Assembly: GCF_007859315.1 (NCBI RefSeq)
Contig: NZ_VOHA01000018.1
Span: 62,001 to 126,000 of the forward strand
Direction of reading: 5' to 3'
Length of the DNA: 64,000 nt
Origin: Reyranella sp. CPCC 100927
Lineage (GTDB): Bacteria > Pseudomonadota > Alphaproteobacteria > Reyranellales > Reyranellaceae
A program made the translations under genes and the position numbers. Numbering within the stretch: the stretch's first letter is position 1; every line of letters starts with the position of its first letter. The notes beneath the pieces are model-generated. The model was not told where the DNA came from. It did not search any database and saw only the letters and a list, made by a program, of their open reading frames with translations. Shown in pieces: positions 41,000 to 49,789 of the stretch.

Positions 41000-41926
41000 T
41001 CACCCGCGCGCGGCAGCGAGCACAGTCTCGATCACTGTGCCGTGTACGGGGTGCGCGAAGCCGTCGACCGAGGCGGCGCGCACCCCGGCGACCGGATCGG
41101 CCGATGGCCCGTCGCGCACGAGGGTTTCGAGGATCTGCAGGTCGATCTGCGGCGTCACGGTCGCCAGCAGCGATGCGGCCTTCGCCGGCAACAGCAGCGA
41201 CAACGCCGCCAGAAATGCGTAGGCGCCCCAGTTGGAAACGCCGCAGACCACGAGATGATCGGCCGGCGTGACGCAGGCGATCTTCTCGCCGTTGGGCACC
41301 GAGCCTGCGATCAGATCGCGCGGCAGGCTGCCCATGCCGACCTCGTTGCCGCCGTCGCCGATCGCGATGCGCACCCAGGGGCCTGCCGTGAACAGGTCAT
41401 CCAGCGGCGCGGTGGTCGCCGACACGTCGATCCCGCGCATCGTATAGCAGCCGCCATCGGCGGCCCGGCCGCAGCGCTCGATGGCGATGACATGCGTCAC
41501 CCCCGCCGTGCGCCAACGATCGACCAGGCTTGCAATCGCCTCGGCCTGTGCCGGCCCGGTCGGCACGACATCCAGCCCGATCCGCGCGTCGATGGCCTGG
41601 CCGGTGCCGCGCAGCGCGGCACTGACGGCACCGGCGCACGGCGTGTCGGTCGCCACGCGTACACCCCAGCCGCAGTTGGCGAAACCGATGGCAAGATGGG
41701 CGGCGCCCACCGGGCCGTCGGTCTCCGCCATCGGCGGATCGAGAGTCGGCACGAAAAAGCCGGTGATGATGCCGATGGTGGGCTGGGCGACAGCCACGAT
41801 CGCACGCGCCGCGCGGGCCAGCCCGCCCTGCGTGGCCGCCATCAGCGGTGCCGCGCCGCGCCCGACCTCGCGGCAGACAACCGCTTCGATGGCGGCCAGC
41901 CGCGCATCGACATCGACCTGTTCCAT
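41000..41926 (-). CDS. D-glutamate cyclase family protein (DUF4392)
   Basis: A 308-residue protein matching the DUF4392/D-glutamate cyclase family: HVIAIERCGRAADGGCYTMR, DLFTAGPWVRIAIGDGGNE and GGNEVGMGSLPRDLIAGSVP are the hallmark blocks. Enzymes of this family convert D-glutamate to 5-oxoproline. Its ATG shares bases with the stop codon of the upstream cyclase gene (TGATG), so the two are translationally coupled. No D-glutamate transporter or racemase is adjacent. Confidence 0.82.
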   Translation of the reverse strand: MEQVDVDARLAAIEAVVCREVGRGAAPLMAATQGGLARAARAIVAVAQPTIGIITGFFVPTLDPPMAETDGPVGAAHLAIGFANCGWGVRVATDTPCAGAVSAALRGTGQAIDARIGLDVVPTGPAQAEAIASLVDRWRTAGVTHVIAIERCGRAADGGCYTMRGIDVSATTAPLDDLFTAGPWVRIAIGDGGNEVGMGSLPRDLIAGSVPNGEKIACVTPADHLVVCGVSNWGAYAFLAALSLLLPAKAASLLATVTPQIDLQILETLVRDGPSADPVAGVRAASVDGFAHPVHGTVIETVLAAARG

Positions 41927-44190
41927 CACTTCTCCTCAGCCTCATAAACGCCATCCCAGATGGCAGGCGGTTGGGCAACAAGAGTTTTCAGCCGGACGTT
42001 CATGCGCTCGTAGTATCCCGAGCCCCAATCCGCCACGTCAGCACAGGCCTTCGCCTGTTCAGCCTTGAGCCTTGCCGCCGCGAAATCACCGGCACGATAT
42101 GCCACTAGGAACGCCCCGTGTGCGGCCTCCCAGGCGCGGAACGCCTCGGTATCGCGCAGGGTGGCATCGCCGATCAGGGCGAAGATGCGTTCCGGCTCGC
42201 TCCTGCCCTTCACCTTGACCAGATCGAGCTCGATGCAGGCAAAGTCCGGCGCCGACCGCCGGGTGTCCTCGCCGACGATGATCGCCACGCCATAGACCTT
42301 GCACTGACCTTCCAGGCGTGAGGCCAGATTGACGTCATCGCCCAGCACCGAATAGGTGAAGCGCTGGTCGGACCCGAAGTTGCCGACAGACGCCGGACCC
42401 GTATTGAGGCCGATTCCGATCGCCACCGGGATGTGGTTGCGCCCCTCGTCGTGCGCCTGGCTGCGCCATTCGATATTCAAGTCCTTCAGGCGCGACTGCA
42501 TGGCCAGCGCCGCGCGACAGGCCCGCGCCGCATGGTCCGGCACATCGAGTGGCGCGTTCCAGAATGCCATGATCGAGTCGCCCATGTACTTGTCGATCGT
42601 GCCGCGTTCGGAAAGGATGATGTTGGTCATGGGTGTCAGGAAGCGATTCATGAACCGCGTCAGGCCCGGCGGATCGAACTGCTCGGAAATCGTCGTGAAA
42701 CCGCGCACGTCGGTGAACATCACCGTCAGGATCCGCTCCTCGCCGCCGAGTTGCAGGCGCGCGGGATTGCGCGCCAGTTCCTCGACCACATCCGGTGACA
42801 GGTAGAGGCCAAAGGCACCGCGGATCTGCGCCCGCTCGCGCTCGGTCAGCATGAAACTCGACGCCGAACTGGCGGCGTAGATCAGCGCCAGCATTGCAGG
42901 TGCATAGATGGGATCGACCAGCACGCGTTCGGTGACAAAGAGAAGCCACGGTGCCCCCAGGCCGACGGCCACGCCGACAATCGCCAGCACGCCCTTCCAA
43001 CCGGCCGAGACGCGCGGCATGACGAACACGAAGAGCAAACCCGCCACCAGCAGGAAGCCGGTCTCCAGCGCGCCGGCATAGAACGGCCGCGCCAGGTAGG
43101 TCTCCGTGAAGATCTGCTCGACGAGCTGGGCATGGATCTCGACGCCGGGAATGGCGCTGTCCACCGGTGTGTTGCGGATGTCCTTGAGACCGGCGGCGCT
43201 GGTGCCGACGAAGATAATACTGCCCGCGATCTTCTCCTTGTCGACCCGATCCTCCATCACGTCACGGGCGGAGATGAACCGCTCCTGGCGGTGGCCGCTG
43301 TCGTACAGCACCAGGTTGCCATGGCGGTCGGTCGGTACGATGCGATCGCCGACCCGAACGGACTGCACACCGTCCTGGAATGCCGACAGCGTTCGCGCCA
43401 GCCACCCCAGATCGCCGCCCGATGTCGCGCCGCGCACGACATATGTCGAGGCCTGCACGGCGATGCGCACCGCCTCCAGGGAAAGCGCCGGATAAACATG
43501 CGACTGCGTCTCGAGCCGCAGCAACAGGGGAACGCGGCGGATCACGGTGATGTCGTGGTCGGGCGTGATACCGCCGTTGCCCTTGGCGCCGGCTTCCAGC
43601 AACTCCAAGGTGGAAACCACGCTGGCATAGCGGTTCAGGTACAGCAGCGGATCCTCGCCACTGATCGCGTAGCCGTGTTTCAGACCTGGTGGCCGGCTCT
43701 GGCGCGTCGCGGTATCGAAGGCATAGGCCGTCACCACATTGGCATGGGCGAAGGCATCGGCCAGCAGGCGGTCGTTATCCTGCACGGCGGCGGCAATGCG
43801 CTGCACGGTCTCAGGATCGACATAGGCAATCAGCTCGCGCACCCGGCGATGCCACGACGAAGCGTCGGGCTCGGCAAACAACACGTCGAAGGCAACAACG
43901 GCCGCTCCCTGCTCACTGAGCTTGTCGACCAGCTTGGCAAGCCGATCGCGCGGCCAGGGCCACTGGCCATAGGCTGCCAGCGTTGCTTCGTCGATATCGA
44001 CGATGCGCACGTTCCATTGCGGATCATAGTCACGCGGCTTCAGACGCTGGAACGCATCGAACGCGAAGTCACGCAGCTGGTTGACGCTGGGTGGGTCGGC
44101 GACGCGCAGCGCCAGCGCCGCCAACAGGACCATGAACGGCGCCACGATCGGCAAGCGCCTGCCCCATCGCCTTGCCAGCCACCCGATCAT
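41926..44190 (-). CDS. CHASE2-domain adenylate/guanylate cyclase
   Basis: A 754-residue membrane sensor. After a short N-terminal membrane anchor, residues about 40-350 form a CHASE2 periplasmic sensor domain (for example VNQLRDFAFDAFQRLKPRDY, AAYGQWPWPRDRLAKLVDKL, AAVVAFDVLFAEPD). Three membrane spans follow at about 370-445. The C-terminal class III cyclase domain contains VMFTDVRGFTTISE (metal Asp near 490), DKYMGDSIMAFWN (metal Asp near 540) and VLGDDVNLASRLEGQC (transition-state Asn-Arg). The ATG at 44190 is chosen because GGGGGGAAGGG lies upstream; an ATG at 44214 is the alternative. It makes cAMP or cGMP in response to a periplasmic cue. Confidence 0.93.
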   Translation of the reverse strand: MIGWLARRWGRRLPIVAPFMVLLAALALRVADPPSVNQLRDFAFDAFQRLKPRDYDPQWNVRIVDIDEATLAAYGQWPWPRDRLAKLVDKLSEQGAAVVAFDVLFAEPDASSWHRRVRELIAYVDPETVQRIAAAVQDNDRLLADAFAHANVVTAYAFDTATRQSRPPGLKHGYAISGEDPLLYLNRYASVVSTLELLEAGAKGNGGITPDHDITVIRRVPLLLRLETQSHVYPALSLEAVRIAVQASTYVVRGATSGGDLGWLARTLSAFQDGVQSVRVGDRIVPTDRHGNLVLYDSGHRQERFISARDVMEDRVDKEKIAGSIIFVGTSAAGLKDIRNTPVDSAIPGVEIHAQLVEQIFTETYLARPFYAGALETGFLLVAGLLFVFVMPRVSAGWKGVLAIVGVAVGLGAPWLLFVTERVLVDPIYAPAMLALIYAASSASSFMLTERERAQIRGAFGLYLSPDVVEELARNPARLQLGGEERILTVMFTDVRGFTTISEQFDPPGLTRFMNRFLTPMTNIILSERGTIDKYMGDSIMAFWNAPLDVPDHAARACRAALAMQSRLKDLNIEWRSQAHDEGRNHIPVAIGIGLNTGPASVGNFGSDQRFTYSVLGDDVNLASRLEGQCKVYGVAIIVGEDTRRSAPDFACIELDLVKVKGRSEPERIFALIGDATLRDTEAFRAWEAAHGAFLVAYRAGDFAAARLKAEQAKACADVADWGSGYYERMNVRLKTLVAQPPAIWDGVYEAEEK

Positions 44191-44243
44191 TCGCCCTTCC
44201 CCCCGGCACGACATTACGGTCAGCCGCGCCGGCCGTCCATGTC

Positions 44244-45233
44244 ATGCCTTCCCCGCCGAGCCCCCCGATGCTATCTCCGCGTGCGATGTCGAGTTTCCCC
44301 TCTCCCGGTTCGTTGTCCGATTCCGTCGGCGGTATCTACAGCAAGGTCGTGGCGCTCGCGCTGCTGTCCACTATGGATGCCATGGTGAAGGCGCTCGGTG
44401 CGCGCTATCCGACCCTACAAATCGTCTTCTGCCGCAGCGTGTTTTCGGTACTGCCGCTTCTGTGGCTGATCCAGGCCGCCGGCGGCTGGCAAACGCTTGC
44501 CACGCGCCAGCCCCTGCTGCAGTTCGGCCGCGTGGTCGTATCGTTCCTGTCGATGTTCGGCTTCTTCTACCTCTTCCCGTTGATGCCGCTGGCGGAACTG
44601 TATGCGATCTCGTTCGCCTCGCCGTTCTTCATGACCGTCCTGGGTGTCCTGCTGCTGGGCGAGCAGGTCGGCTGGCGCCGCTGGTGTGCGGTGATCGTCG
44701 GCTTCATCGGCGTACTGATCATCGTGCAGCCGGGAACGGCAGCATTCCATCCGCTGTCGCTGGCGGTGCTGGGCACCACGTTCTGCTACGCGCTCTCGAT
44801 GATCTGCGTGCGCCGCCTCAGCCGGACCGACAGCGACCAGACCATCCTGTGCTATTCCATCGCGTCGATCACCGTGAGCGGCCTGATCATCAGCGGCAAC
44901 GAGATTGCCGGGCAACCGTTGGGTACCGCTTGGATCTGGCCGACATTCACCGACTGGCTATGGCTGGCCGCGATCGGTTTGACCGGCGGCTTTGGGCAGA
45001 TCCTCATGACGCGCGCCTGGCGGCTGGCCCCTGCTGCCGTGCTGGCGCCGTTCGACTACGTCTCGATCGTGTTCGCGCTGAGCTACGGCTGGTTGTTCTG
45101 GCGCGAGGTGCCGACCGTCTGGTTGTGGCTGGGCCTGCCGCTGATCATCGGCTCCGGCCTCTACATGCTGCATCGTGAGCGCGTGCGTGCGCGTCAGAGG
45201 CGGTCGGGGTCCGATGACAATTCGACCGCATGA
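44244..45233 (+). CDS. EamA/DMT-family transporter
   Basis: A 329-residue drug/metabolite transporter with ten predicted spans in two EamA repeats. Typical loops are GIYSKVVALALLSTMDAMVK in the first half and AAIGLTGGFGQILMTRAWRL in the second. It is divergent from the cyclase gene, with only about 50 bases between starts, so the start is uncertain (44244, 44268 and 44286 are all possible) and no clear ribosome site is seen. Substrate unknown. Confidence 0.85.
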   Translation: MPSPPSPPMLSPRAMSSFPSPGSLSDSVGGIYSKVVALALLSTMDAMVKALGARYPTLQIVFCRSVFSVLPLLWLIQAAGGWQTLATRQPLLQFGRVVVSFLSMFGFFYLFPLMPLAELYAISFASPFFMTVLGVLLLGEQVGWRRWCAVIVGFIGVLIIVQPGTAAFHPLSLAVLGTTFCYALSMICVRRLSRTDSDQTILCYSIASITVSGLIISGNEIAGQPLGTAWIWPTFTDWLWLAAIGLTGGFGQILMTRAWRLAPAAVLAPFDYVSIVFALSYGWLFWREVPTVWLWLGLPLIIGSGLYMLHRERVRARQRRSGSDDNSTA

Positions 45234-45282: not shown

Positions 45283-45321
45283 GATCAGGTTGAGTAGTCA
45301 TCGATATCCGTCAACCTGATC
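45283..45321. promoter_or_regulatory. Perfect 11-base inverted repeat, candidate operator or RNA hairpin
   Basis: GATCAGGTTGA (45283-45293) and TCAACCTGATC (45311-45321) are exact complements with a 17-base loop, 50 bases after the DMT transporter stop codon. No T-run follows, so it is not a standard terminator. It stands at the head of the AT-rich leader before the barrel gene. Confidence 0.5.
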
Positions 45322-45443: not shown

Positions 45444-46934
45444 ATGTTCAGGTCCCAGGGCCTGCAAGCTATTTCATTTGGGGGTTCGAGAACGGTTTCG
45501 CCTGCGTACACGCGGACTCGCTGCGGCGACGTCCAACGCGTGACGAGGAGGTGCGCCGTAAACGCGTCAGTGTCGACCGAGGGGGATCGGTTGAACGGGC
45601 CAGGGTGGTTGCGCGCAGGTCTGCTCTCGATCTGCATGACGTTCGGGGGTCAGCACGAGTCGAACGCCCAGACGCCGCCGGCGTCAGCGGATCGCGCTGC
45701 CTATGACAGCGCATTCAAGGAGATGATCGGCGATCCCGGCAATCTTCAGAAGGCGTTCACCTTCGTCGAACGCGCGATCAAGGTCGGCGATCTGGAAGGC
45801 GCTGTCGCCGCGCTGGAACGCATGCTGATTCTCGCCCCGAACCTGCCGCGCGTACGCCTGGAGCTCGGCGTTCTCTACTATCGACTTGGTTCGTATCAAA
45901 TCGCCCGGCGGTACATCGCCGAGGTACTCGCCCTGCCCGATGTGCCGCCGCCCGTGCGCCAACGCGCCGAGGCTTTTCAGGAAGAGATCGATCGCCAGAT
46001 CAATCCGCACAAATTCTCCGGCACTCTGCTCTTCGGTTTCCGTTATCAATCGAACGCCAATGCCGCACCGACAGCCGGCAACGTGCGGTTCGGCGGCCTG
46101 GATGCCCAGCTCGACCGCCAGTTCACGGCCAAGAAAGACGGCAACGCCTTCGTCATCGGCAGCTTCCAGCACCTCTGGGACTTCGGCCTGCAAGGCGGCG
46201 AGTCGCTGGACACACAGGCGACGATCTACGCGGCGCGGCAGTTCAAGGCCACCGCTGTCGATCTGCTCTACGCCAGCGTCACAAGCGGCCCCCGCATGTG
46301 GCTGCTGCCCTCGCAGCTACCGCAGGTCAGCATCCGGCCTTATGTCGGGATCGACTATGTGATCCTGGGAACGTCGACGGAGTATTGGGCGCCGGGTGTC
46401 GGCGTCAATCTCGACAAGAAGTGGTCCGACGTTGCCGTGAGTTTCGTCGCCGAGGTCCGTCGCCGCGACTATCACAACAGCAAGAAGCGCCCGTTCAACG
46501 ATTTCCGCACCGGCTGGGAGACGTTCGGACGCATATCCGCCGACTGGCAGGTATTGCCCTGGCTGTCGCTGGGCGCATGGGCCGGCGCCGGCCGTTTCGA
46601 CGCCAAGAAACGCTTCGAAAGCTACAACGAATGGCTGCTGGGTGTCGGCGCACAGGCCATGCTCGGCCAACCGGCGTGGGCACCTGGTGAGCAGATCACG
46701 CTGACGTTGTCGGCGGCGCGCCTGTGGGACAACTACGACGCACCGGATCCCGCTCTCGATCCGGGAACGACGCGGCGCGACCGCGAGTGGCGCCTGTCGC
46801 TGACACTGCAGGTCCCGATCGCCGAGCGCCTCGCCATCGTGCTGCAGGCGGCGCGCAACGCACGGTCATCATCGCTGCCCAACTTCGACTACACGAACTA
46901 CATCGGTATGGCCGGCCTGACCTGGCGCTTCTAG
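45444..46934 (+). CDS. Slam/DUF560-like TPR plus outer-membrane beta-barrel protein
   Basis: A 496-residue exported protein. After a signal region (WLRAGLLSICMTFGG) come TPR-like helices (residues about 100-175: LQKAFTFVERAIKVGDLEGA, AALERMLILAPNLPRVRLEL, GVLYYRLGSYQIARRYI), then from about 190 a series of amphipathic strands (GTLLFGFRYQSNANAAPTAG, SFQHLWDFGLQGG, ISADWQVLPWLSLGAWAGAG) ending MAGLTWRF with a terminal Phe, typical of outer-membrane barrels. TPR plus barrel is the layout of Slam translocons that export TbpB-like cargo, the likely role here. ATG at 45444 is used; a TTG at 45591 with a GAGGGGGA site gives a tidier signal peptide. Confidence 0.75.
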   Translation: MFRSQGLQAISFGGSRTVSPAYTRTRCGDVQRVTRRCAVNASVSTEGDRLNGPGWLRAGLLSICMTFGGQHESNAQTPPASADRAAYDSAFKEMIGDPGNLQKAFTFVERAIKVGDLEGAVAALERMLILAPNLPRVRLELGVLYYRLGSYQIARRYIAEVLALPDVPPPVRQRAEAFQEEIDRQINPHKFSGTLLFGFRYQSNANAAPTAGNVRFGGLDAQLDRQFTAKKDGNAFVIGSFQHLWDFGLQGGESLDTQATIYAARQFKATAVDLLYASVTSGPRMWLLPSQLPQVSIRPYVGIDYVILGTSTEYWAPGVGVNLDKKWSDVAVSFVAEVRRRDYHNSKKRPFNDFRTGWETFGRISADWQVLPWLSLGAWAGAGRFDAKKRFESYNEWLLGVGAQAMLGQPAWAPGEQITLTLSAARLWDNYDAPDPALDPGTTRRDREWRLSLTLQVPIAERLAIVLQAARNARSSSLPNFDYTNYIGMAGLTWRF

Positions 46935-46963
46935 GCAGTGCGGCCGCCAAGGAGAGACGCATG

Positions 46964-49789
46964 AAGACGATCTCCATTCATCACACTCTCTCTCTCGCGA
47001 TCCTGACGCTGCTCTGTATCCACGGCAGCGCGGCGGCGAAAGTCGGCGTGACCAGCTCGGCCACCGGCGAGCCCATCGGCACCCCGCCGGCGCAGCGCGA
47101 GCGCATCCTGCACGTCGGCACCGACGTCTTCGCCAACGAAGCGATTCGCACGGCGGCCAACGACCGGGCCCATCTGCTGTTCAACGATGGCACGGCGCTG
47201 ACGATCGGCCCCAACAGCCAGGTGGCCATCGACCGCTACGTCTACGATCCGGACAAACGCACCGGCGACATCGCCGTGACCGTCACCAAGGGCGTGTTCC
47301 GGCTGGTCGGTGGCAACATCACCAAATCCTCGGAAGCCGTGGTCAAGACACCCTCGGCGACTATCGGCATCCGGGGCGGCATTACCGTCATCGACGCGAC
47401 GGTGCCCGATGCGGTGAAGGCGTACTTCCTGTTCGGCGAACGCATGCGGGTCACCAACAACAATGGCGAACAGATCGCCCGGCGTCCCGGCAGCATCATC
47501 GAGATCGCCTTGGGACAGCGGCCGGCGGACCCGCGTCTTGCCACACGCACCGAGCTTGCAGCGCCCAAAGGGGCCTTGGAAGCGTCGTCGGCGGCACCGT
47601 CGCCGCCGGGAACGCGCGGCAGCAGCATACCCAGCGCGACCACGATCGAGCAGGGCCTGGCGCAATCCGGCGTCGGCAGCACCAATTCAAACTTGCCGCC
47701 GGAGTCCATCGCACCCCCGGGCGCCAACACGGCGCAAGGCGGTTCGGCTGCCGCCGTGGCGCAGGCCAACGCCGCCGGCACGGATGCGACCAGCCGCGCC
47801 ATGCAGCGCGCGCTGGTCCAGATGACGGGGCCGGAATCAACCCCGCCAGGCCCGACGCAGCAGATCCCACCGCCGCAACAGACAACGGCACCACCGCCGC
47901 CGCCGCCGCCTCCACCGCCACAAACAACGGCACCACCGCCCCCACCGCCGCCAAGCGTGGTGACGCTCGGTAGTCAGGGGCGCTTTGTTGCCGACCCACC
48001 GTACATGGGCTTCAACAACGCGACCCTGGCCGCGCCGCGTGATCCGAGCAACAACACAGCGCTCGCCAGCGCCACCGTCACCGACAACAGCCGGCTGACG
48101 CTCACGACCCAATCGGGTGCTTCCTTCATCCTGCCTTGGAGTCCCGGCGCCGGTGCCGTGCTGTCGGCTTCCAACACCAGTTCGACCTTCGGCCCGCTCT
48201 CCGGCATCGGCCTGATTGCACCGGCAGGCGACTTCTTTGCATACGTCTTCGCACCCGACAGCGCGCCCGAAAGGGCCGGCGGAGTCTTCGGCGGCACACC
48301 GACGCCGACCGCCAGCCTGCCGACTGCCGGGTTCGCCTCCCACGTTCTCGTCGGCATCCAATCGGCAACGTCGATCTCGGCCAGTCCCTTCGTGCCGGAA
48401 GCCGACGCCCTGCGGCCGGCGATCCTGACGGCGTTCAATTCGCCGCTGCTGTCCCGTTATTCGGCGAATGCGCACGTATCGCAGATCGGTAGTGCGCCCG
48501 ATCCCAACCAGCGCGCCGTTGCCATGCAAGCGTCCCTGGGCATCGTCGGCCAGGGTGCCGCACAGTCGTCCTATATGGGTCTCATCCTGGCCACCTACAT
48601 CACCGACTACACCAAGCCCGACGCCATCGTGTTGTCAGGTTCGTACAACGGCTCGCTGCGTGCGTCGGCAATGGCGCGCACGGTGCGCTTCGGCGCCGCC
48701 GCCTCGACGATGGAAACACAGACGGGCACGGCGATCTATGGGCCGCAGGCGGACTACATGGTGCTGGGGCCGGACAGCCATGTGACGTCGGGCGTCGGCG
48801 ACAGCGTGCGCATCGAGCAGGCCGCCTTGCGACAGCCGCATGAGAGCCCGAGCGCGACGAGCAGCTACTACCCGGTGGCGATCGCATTGCCCGCGCCAGT
48901 CCCCGACGGGCTGGGTACGCGGCGAACCACCCGGACGATGAACGGCTACGCCGGCGCCAACGTCGAGACCAGCAGCGCCGCCGGCGTGTTCTCGGAATAC
49001 AGCCTGCGCAACACCCGACCGACCGACATCAGCATCACGACCGACGCCTCGAGCAACCGCGTCGAGGCCTCGCTGCGGATGAAAAGATCGGACAGCTACC
49101 ACAGCGACCTGACGCTGCAGCTGGGTGGCCTGACCGGCAACAGCCGGTCGCGGTCGGCGTTCATCGACGACGGCAATTTCGCCATGACGCAGAACGCCAA
49201 CGTGAGTTCGACCTACAATGACGGCAACCCGGCCAATGCGCGCGTGTTCGCCGTGACGCAGTCGACCGTGCCGGTGCACAACCTGCTGCCCGCCGGTGTG
49301 GGCTTCTGCGACTGCGCATACCTGTCCTGGGGCTATTGGGCGGGCGACGTGCGCTACGACAGCGGGCCGCGCATCAACGAGCGCGATCGCATGCACCTGG
49401 GCACCTGGGTCGCCGGCGAGTTGGCCAGCAAGTCGCAAATTCCCGTCTACGGCACCGCCACCTATAACGGCCATATCATCGGCAACGTCACCAACGGCAA
49501 CAACCGCTACCTGGCGGCGGGTGCATTCCAGCACGGCTGGAACTTCGGCAGCCGCAGCGGAACGGTGACGATCACAAACTTCGATGGCGCCAACTACAGC
49601 GGCACGTCATCCGCTGCCGCGTGGACACCGCAGAATTTCGCGGCCTCGATCGCGGGCGCAGGGCGGACGGGTTCGCTGAACGGCTCCTTCTTCAGGAGCC
49701 CGGCAGACCCGGTCGCCTATCAGGCCGGGAGCTTCGCCATCAACGGCGCGGGATACAGGGCGACCGGCATCTTTGCCGGCAAACGGTGA
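46964..49789 (+). CDS. FecR-domain protein with Pro-rich linker and TbpB-like C-terminal barrel
   Basis: A 941-residue exported protein, starting at 46964 after AGGAGA. Signal residues 1-25 end at SAAA. Residues about 40-150 form a FecR domain (AHLLFNDGTALTIGPNSQVA, VVKTPSATIGIRGGI). A Pro/Thr/Gln-rich linker, with two runs of 7-10 prolines, lies at about 300-330. The remainder is beta-rich and ends SFAINGAGYRATGIFAGKR, similar to the closing strands of TbpB-type barrels. The upstream TPR-barrel gene is 29 bases away and is probably its exporter. A canonical lipobox is absent, so it may be released or surface-bound without lipid. Function unknown; FecR domains often pair with CHASE2 sensors. 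Confidence 0.75.
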   Translation, partial: KTISIHHTLSLAILTLLCIHGSAAAKVGVTSSATGEPIGTPPAQRERILHVGTDVFANEAIRTAANDRAHLLFNDGTALTIGPNSQVAIDRYVYDPDKRTGDIAVTVTKGVFRLVGGNITKSSEAVVKTPSATIGIRGGITVIDATVPDAVKAYFLFGERMRVTNNNGEQIARRPGSIIEIALGQRPADPRLATRTELAAPKGALEASSAAPSPPGTRGSSIPSATTIEQGLAQSGVGSTNSNLPPESIAPPGANTAQGGSAAAVAQANAAGTDATSRAMQRALVQMTGPESTPPGPTQQIPPPQQTTAPPPPPPPPPPQTTAPPPPPPPSVVTLGSQGRFVADPPYMGFNNATLAAPRDPSNNTALASATVTDNSRLTLTTQSGASFILPWSPGAGAVLSASNTSSTFGPLSGIGLIAPAGDFFAYVFAPDSAPERAGGVFGGTPTPTASLPTAGFASHVLVGIQSATSISASPFVPEADALRPAILTAFNSPLLSRYSANAHVSQIGSAPDPNQRAVAMQASLGIVGQGAAQSSYMGLILATYITDYTKPDAIVLSGSYNGSLRASAMARTVRFGAAASTMETQTGTAIYGPQADYMVLGPDSHVTSGVGDSVRIEQAALRQPHESPSATSSYYPVAIALPAPVPDGLGTRRTTRTMNGYAGANVETSSAAGVFSEYSLRNTRPTDISITTDASSNRVEASLRMKRSDSYHSDLTLQLGGLTGNSRSRSAFIDDGNFAMTQNANVSSTYNDGNPANARVFAVTQSTVPVHNLLPAGVGFCDCAYLSWGYWAGDVRYDSGPRINERDRMHLGTWVAGELASKSQIPVYGTATYNGHIIGNVTNGNNRYLAAGAFQHGWNFGSRSGTVTITNFDGANYSGTSSAAAWTPQNFAASIAGAGRTGSLNGSFFRSPADPVAYQAGSFAINGAGYRATGIFAGKR

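Follow-up and report, generated by a model that had tools for sequence, protein, structure and literature searches.

In type XI secretion systems (T11SS), Slam proteins of the DUF560 family (PF04575) are paired with cargo of the TbpB, fHbp or NHBA type. The available part of PMC5449769 describes Slam as tetratricopeptide repeats (TPRs) plus 14 strands, and FecR does not occur there. The T11SS cargo survey in PMC12282271 treats, in the part available, clusters 1 and 3 of a sequence similarity network (SSN) and cargo different from that reported below, and the accessible text of PMC8406197 (2021) describes soluble, nonlipidated cargo; neither main text contains FecR or a cyclase, and our literature searches found no published link of FecR or CHASE2 to the Slam superfamily. 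A link between FecR and CHASE2 is already in print because of three papers, each available in part. S. meliloti CHASE2 cyclases increase cyclic AMP (cAMP) synthesis when plant uL2 is sensed via the outer-membrane barrel NsrA (PMC13001267), a LysM-FecR protein occurs with a CHASE2 kinase in Burkholderia (PMC5192318, which calls the signals of CHASE2 domains unknown), and a CHASE2 cyclase cluster of Campylobacterota holds a phosphodiesterase, a FecR outer membrane protein and a TPR protein (PMC9239204). Here, we analyzed a 64,000-nucleotide stretch of Reyranella sp. CPCC 100927 (contig NZ_VOHA01000018.1, positions 62,001 to 126,000; hereafter the window), in which a gene for a TPR-barrel protein (gene A) is followed by a gene for a FecR protein (gene B), with a CHASE2 cyclase gene nearby. 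We consider it an evenly balanced proposition that B is the cargo of exporter A within the T11SS (Slam/DUF560) superfamily and that the two form an outside-in signalling unit with the cyclase. The computed basis for this proposal is the homology of A to Slam, the predicted folds of A and B, the conservation of the pair, and its linkage to FecR and CHASE2.

The A-B locus resembles T11SS in having TPRs with a predicted 14-stranded barrel and an adjacent cargo with a TbpB/NHBA-type C-terminal barrel; it differs in that the cargo lacks a lipobox and has FecR at its N-terminus, A alone is missed by PF04575, and a CHASE2 cyclase lies nearby. We take nsrA to be the gene directly upstream of cyaK; the NsrA-like protein encoded there combines FecR with TPR and, at its C-terminus, a barrel that is matched weakly. 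Both loci place FecR, TPR and outer-membrane barrel modules next to a CHASE2 adenylate cyclase, but these occupy one 1190-aa protein there and two proteins here, no homology between the barrels was found, and the FecR protein B bears a Slam-cargo barrel. The Campylobacterota cluster has the same three gene kinds, and its TPR protein is not termed a Slam homologue or exporter in the available part of PMC9239204. B also shares its FecR fold with FecA-FecR and PupB-PupR signalling, but has neither their anti-sigma domain nor their transmembrane helix: ~25 signal-peptide residues precede the fold, and Pfam lists no further N-terminal domain. For the anchoring or retention domains of LapA-type adhesins, the exporter is of type 1 rather than type 11-like as here, and the sequence match is weak (2/24 long cargos match the NCBIfam 'retention module', best 1.1e-4).

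A belongs to the T11SS/DUF560 superfamily by homology, as shown by profile comparison: the A family aligned with Slam/DUF560 over both the TPRs and the barrel. The Slam profile comprised 27 Slams, FecR-linked ones among them, and a set of 13 served as a stricter test. The predicted model of the barrel has 14 strands, each of at least 13 residues, at a pLDDT of 93.3. A first-pass annotation, made from the letters of the window, had proposed a signal-bearing TPR-barrel gene ending in WRF as one half of a Slam-like pair; the reading frame is present with that C-terminus, the barrel on which the annotation had staked its case beforehand is predicted, and the pairing agrees with the profile homology and with the fold of B. 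As the start of the gene, the TTG at 45591 is more likely than 45444, since the orthologue in Vineibacter terrae opens with TTG at the identical residue; a G-rich stretch precedes this TTG. Between gene A and the transporter-like gene before it lies a perfect 11-base inverted repeat (45283-45321; arms 45283-45293 and 45311-45321), and no such repeat was detected in front of the V. terrae orthologue. The top NCBIfam model for A was EpsL, a polysaccharide barrel, which matched at 1.9e-6 with 27 of 275 bits and covered the final part alone. We rejected this identity because Slam profiles outscore the EpsL model and span TPRs and barrel. Against solved structures, the sequence matches listed for the A family fall in the TPR part. 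Porin-like barrels but no Slam appear in the VIA list for A, an absence that is uninformative.

B follows A closely and in the same direction, 26 bases separating the A stop codon from the B ATG (29 in the first-pass annotation), and has 942 codons rather than the 941 claimed; the annotation's reading of B as an exported protein agrees with the signal peptide judged by eye. The FecR domain (PF04773, 1.3e-10, residues 61-141 in Pfam), the Pro-rich linker and the terminal GIFAGKR are all as the annotation had described. The top structural match of the FecR region is the cell-surface-signalling domain of PupR, and the region is also structurally like the anchoring domain 5ix9. A pattern search found no lipobox in B, again as claimed; the pattern was present in 5/136 FecR neighbours and not in the other 131. 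At the C-terminus, the predicted model matches NHBA and TbpB structurally, which bears out the TbpB-type fold that had been proposed. By sequence, B matches NF041636 'Slam-dependent surface lipoprotein' at 1.4e-7, but its 32 bits fall short of the cut-off of 80, and NHBA (GNA2132) among solved structures only at E 0.023. NF041636 also matches 14/24 long cargos at E ≤0.01 (best 6.3e-15). Both Cys of a CxC motif before the barrel are invariant in 24/24 long cargos (alignment A3), and the full motif pattern occurs in 27/65 named FecR neighbours versus 0/30 phylum FecR neighbours. Profile comparison gave no significant match for an internal duplication of the lobes of B. Two FecR cargos elsewhere, L109:9315-14003 and L111:9139-14001 (1562 and 1620 aa), carry the lobe unit twice.

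The A-B pair is real, conserved and widespread, and is no chance arrangement. Gene A had matches at E ≤1e-3 in 34 of the 61 genomes searched (its own included), 28 of them at E ≤1e-60. In V. terrae, the nearest named relative of the source genome in the sample, the orthologues share 77% (A) and 73% (B) identity with the window proteins, and the dN/dS values (A, 0.20; B, 0.26; cyclase gene, 0.21) indicate purifying selection on all three genes. Scoring a FecR gene as adjacent if it lay ≤400 bases from the exporter on the same strand, we found FecR beside the exporter at 40/45 relative loci, at 62 of the 80 named loci (the best 80 of 295), at 14 of 20 loci from a phylum-wide search with the A2 profile (the 20 best other genomes) and at 16 of 39 PF04575 loci (37 genomes). 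Since some loci belong to both the relative and the named set, these two counts are not additive, and the last rate is biased because some of these loci, hand-picked from 68 positive genomes, were chosen for a CHASE2 match already seen beside them. FecR is thus a frequent neighbour in this branch, which corrects the earlier view of it as unusual. On a tree with 89 exporters, 8 changes account for the FecR label, versus 28.7 in shuffles (0/500 as low). The first exporter tree took 29/80 named loci; the second left out five long-branched rows and again gave 8 changes, versus 26.5 shuffled. A C-terminal barrel domain was detected by profile in 50 of the 62 FecR-linked named loci.

Beside a distant TPR barrel-type protein, the FecR protein at L074:4554-5762 carries a Hint/intein-like domain at its C-terminus (PT-HINT 5e-12). 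L240:8858-10921, beside a Slam-superfamily gene, matches TbpB_B_D (3.4e-10) and, weakly, a class 3 lipase (0.0023), and on its sequence is a possible enzyme-bearing T11SS cargo. Among phylum-wide FecR partners (alignment A4), 4/30 match CsgG and 3/30 match LpoB at up to E 0.1.

The first-pass annotation had missed the CHASE2 adenylate cyclase near the pair, which alters the likely function of the pair. This cyclase gene is the sole CHASE2 gene found in the source genome (9.08 Mb, 99% complete), which has 13 FecR genes, and the cyclase-A arrangement is the same in V. terrae with similar spacing. A CHASE2 gene lay ≤6 kb from the exporter in 4/45 relative, 8/80 named, 10/20 phylum and 9/39 PF04575 loci. 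All 31 of these entries (28 distinct loci, three being in two sets) also have an adjacent FecR gene, and in 21 of them cyclase and exporter share a strand. An independent-pairs test of FecR versus CHASE2 on the tree reached a median p of only 0.125. On Shinella p1 and Paracoccus pAMI5, the exporter, a FecR protein (weak TbpB_B_D and FHBP_C matches) and the cyclase stand in a row; on a Shinella plasmid (L251:14989-19182), NHLP-type bacteriocin export genes lie directly downstream of such a trio. Among 40 CHASE2 loci chosen separately from the top of the matches listed, 21 had FecR in the stretch and 5 had a Slam-type match, which was weak or partial in some. Four of the 40 have a FecR protein of 1450-2176 aa directly beside the CHASE2 cyclase (L295:8057-12409, L298:186-6716, L305:1504-6825 and L313:7862-12781), and the three scanned (L295, L298 and L313) gave cadherin-like, Ig-like, laminin-G or RTX-type matches. 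A search for CRP-like sites returned five weak matches in the 64 kb, fewer than chance, and none near the genes.

Positions of the features in the window (residue numbers refer to the respective protein)
Feature	Position	Strand	Details
Gene A, Slam/DUF560-superfamily outer-membrane protein	45591..46934	+	447 aa, TTG start
Sec signal peptide of A, ~residues 1-27	45591..45671	+	judged by eye
TPR domain of A, residues 32-137	45684..46001	+	six helices; Pfam TPR_9 3.5e-9 and predicted model
Beta-barrel of A, residues 140-447	46008..46931	+	14 long strands (predicted)
Gene B, FecR-TbpB-like putative cargo	46961..49789	+	942 aa, ATG start
Sec signal peptide of B, ~residues 1-25	46961..47035	+	judged by eye; without lipobox
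FecR/cell-surface-signalling fold, residues 26-183	47036..47509	+	
Disordered Pro-rich linker, residues 209-331	47585..47953	+	pLDDT <50 nearly throughout
TbpB C-lobe-like region, residues 658-942	48932..49786	+	
CxC motif CDCAYLSWGYW before barrel, residues 783-793	49307..49339	+	pattern position
C-terminal barrel of B, residues 814-941	49400..49783	+	NF041636 slam_lipo match
CHASE2 adenylate/guanylate cyclase	41926..44214	-	762 aa; PF05226 1.1e-53, PF00211 3.2e-18
DMT/EamA-like transporter reading frame between cyclase and gene A	44172-45233	+	sequence only

From these data, we infer export of B, retention of FecR, contact between FecR and CHASE2, and a cAMP output. Sec would carry B into the periplasm; the TPR domain of A would assist its capture, and the 14-stranded barrel would pass the TbpB/NHBA-like lobes to the cell surface; for these steps, the homologous Slam serves as the model. 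At the far end of the ~120-residue disordered linker, whose length should suffice to span the outer membrane, the FecR domain would remain in the periplasm. There, it would substitute for the lipid anchor of usual Slam cargo and serve as a transmitter, such that a ligand on the outer lobes would alter the hold of FecR on the periplasmic CHASE2 domain and change cAMP. We reasoned that the FecR domain is probably periplasmic because its fold matches signalling and anchoring domains and because the cyclase that recurs as its partner bears a CHASE2 sensor domain.

Several observations weigh against this signalling proposal, chief among them the loci without a cyclase and the FecR partners without a barrel. 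In A's own family, 72 of the 80 named loci have no CHASE2 gene within 6 kb, an Azospirillum plasmid has exporter and FecR with no cyclase listed in 19 kb, and in the window the cyclase and A-B form no operon because they are on opposite strands with a transporter-like gene between. Of the 12 FecR-linked named loci without a profile-detected barrel, we judged 3 to be cut by a contig end, 3 to be split over two frames, and 6 to have a FecR partner without a C-terminal barrel and with no sign of truncation; TbpB_B_D was found by Pfam in just 2/30 phylum-wide FecR partners. The barrel is accordingly not the sole signal for A's exporter family, since some FecR partners are without it. The FecR test failed in 18/80 named loci: 4 were cut by contig ends, 1 (L108) has FecR by a broken exporter, and the search found no FecR at the other 13, L150 among them with just ~300 bases left downstream. 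Nine of the 13 are in the tree and sit in one 12-row group that includes three FecR-linked rows. Exporter homologues without FecR found nearby include L118, L119, L121, L122, L124, L127, L132, L136, L140, L156, L160 and L166; some of them adjoin, by eye, an acyl-CoA-dehydrogenase-like gene. FecR was likewise not adjacent in L274-L289, of which L274-L286 derive from the strongest PF04575 matches (L283 has FecR ~4 kb off). The profile search of A against Slam/DUF560 suggested by the first-pass annotation succeeded with family-level profiles but not for A alone, which has no match to Pfam PF04575 (SlipAM) up to E 1; a PF04575 search of the source genome gave none either. PF04575 matches 24/65 A-family members up to E 1 (best 1.1e-5), and another barrel model, PF13505, matches 11/65 (best 8.1e-7). 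The decoy barrel family BBP2, an alignment of 5 sequences, reached 93.9% against Slam barrels (E 2e-7); therefore, barrels get high probabilities easily. BcsC was dropped as a decoy, with matches in 4/115 genomes being too few. The NsrA-like barrel matched neither the A2 nor the Slam profile, the latter matching the TPRs of that protein alone, and SMc02177, another FecR protein of S. meliloti, is in the available part of PMC5498481 a target of the cAMP regulator Clr that is dispensable for plant signal perception.

The scarcity of CHASE2 around A's family would suit a plain T11SS pair, in which A exports B, FecR is a mere outer-membrane anchor (a retention plug replacing the lipid), B acts at the surface as an adhesin or binding protein, and the cyclase regulates genes or is unrelated. 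The likeness to 5ix9, the two long cargos matching the 'retention module' and the FecR heads of cadherin/RTX-type giants also point this way, as do matches of the FecR part of alignment A3 to the surface-protein models Lsa33 (21/24) and LipL45 (20/24), up to E 0.01. We nevertheless regard this explanation as rather unlikely, because the best structural match of the B FecR domain is to a signalling domain, FecR is adjacent in 31/31 entries with CHASE2 within 6 kb, and no CHASE2 gene besides that of the window was found in the 9.08 Mb. Alternatively, A may be a receptor rather than an exporter, its TPR barrel sensing the outside and a wholly periplasmic B relaying to CHASE2, like NsrA modules split over two proteins. 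The single-protein architecture upstream of cyaK and the rarity of the TbpB-type barrel among phylum-wide partners are consistent with this, but A is homologous to Slam over TPRs and barrel, and a periplasmic role leaves the Slam-cargo-type barrel of B unexplained; we find it distinctly improbable. Release of B whole into the medium, with FecR as an inert passenger, has a precedent in the soluble, nonlipidated T11SS cargo described in part of PMC8406197 and fits the lack of a lipobox in B and in 131/136 FecR neighbours. Across the wider set, however, FecR stays constant while the barrel varies, the reverse of what an inert passenger would show, and this explanation seems very unlikely.

Overall, we take seriously the case that A and B act with the CHASE2 cyclase in signalling linked to T11SS. 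It is possible, if somewhat short of an even chance, that a large Slam/T11SS branch is the outer-membrane part of cAMP signalling and not a nutrient or adhesin exporter, with a sensor end of the FecR protein outside and its FecR end inside switching a CHASE2 cyclase. The same FecR-CHASE2 core would then use T11SS, a barrel in the same protein (NsrA), or, judged by repeats, RTX-type export in the giant FecR-cadherins. The loci connect many further DUF560 relatives with FecR, and some of these relatives with CHASE2 cyclases as well, which gives uncharacterized members a testable function. The locus is a candidate answer to how CHASE2 domains perceive events outside the cell, and suggests a partly described way of sensing the outside world.
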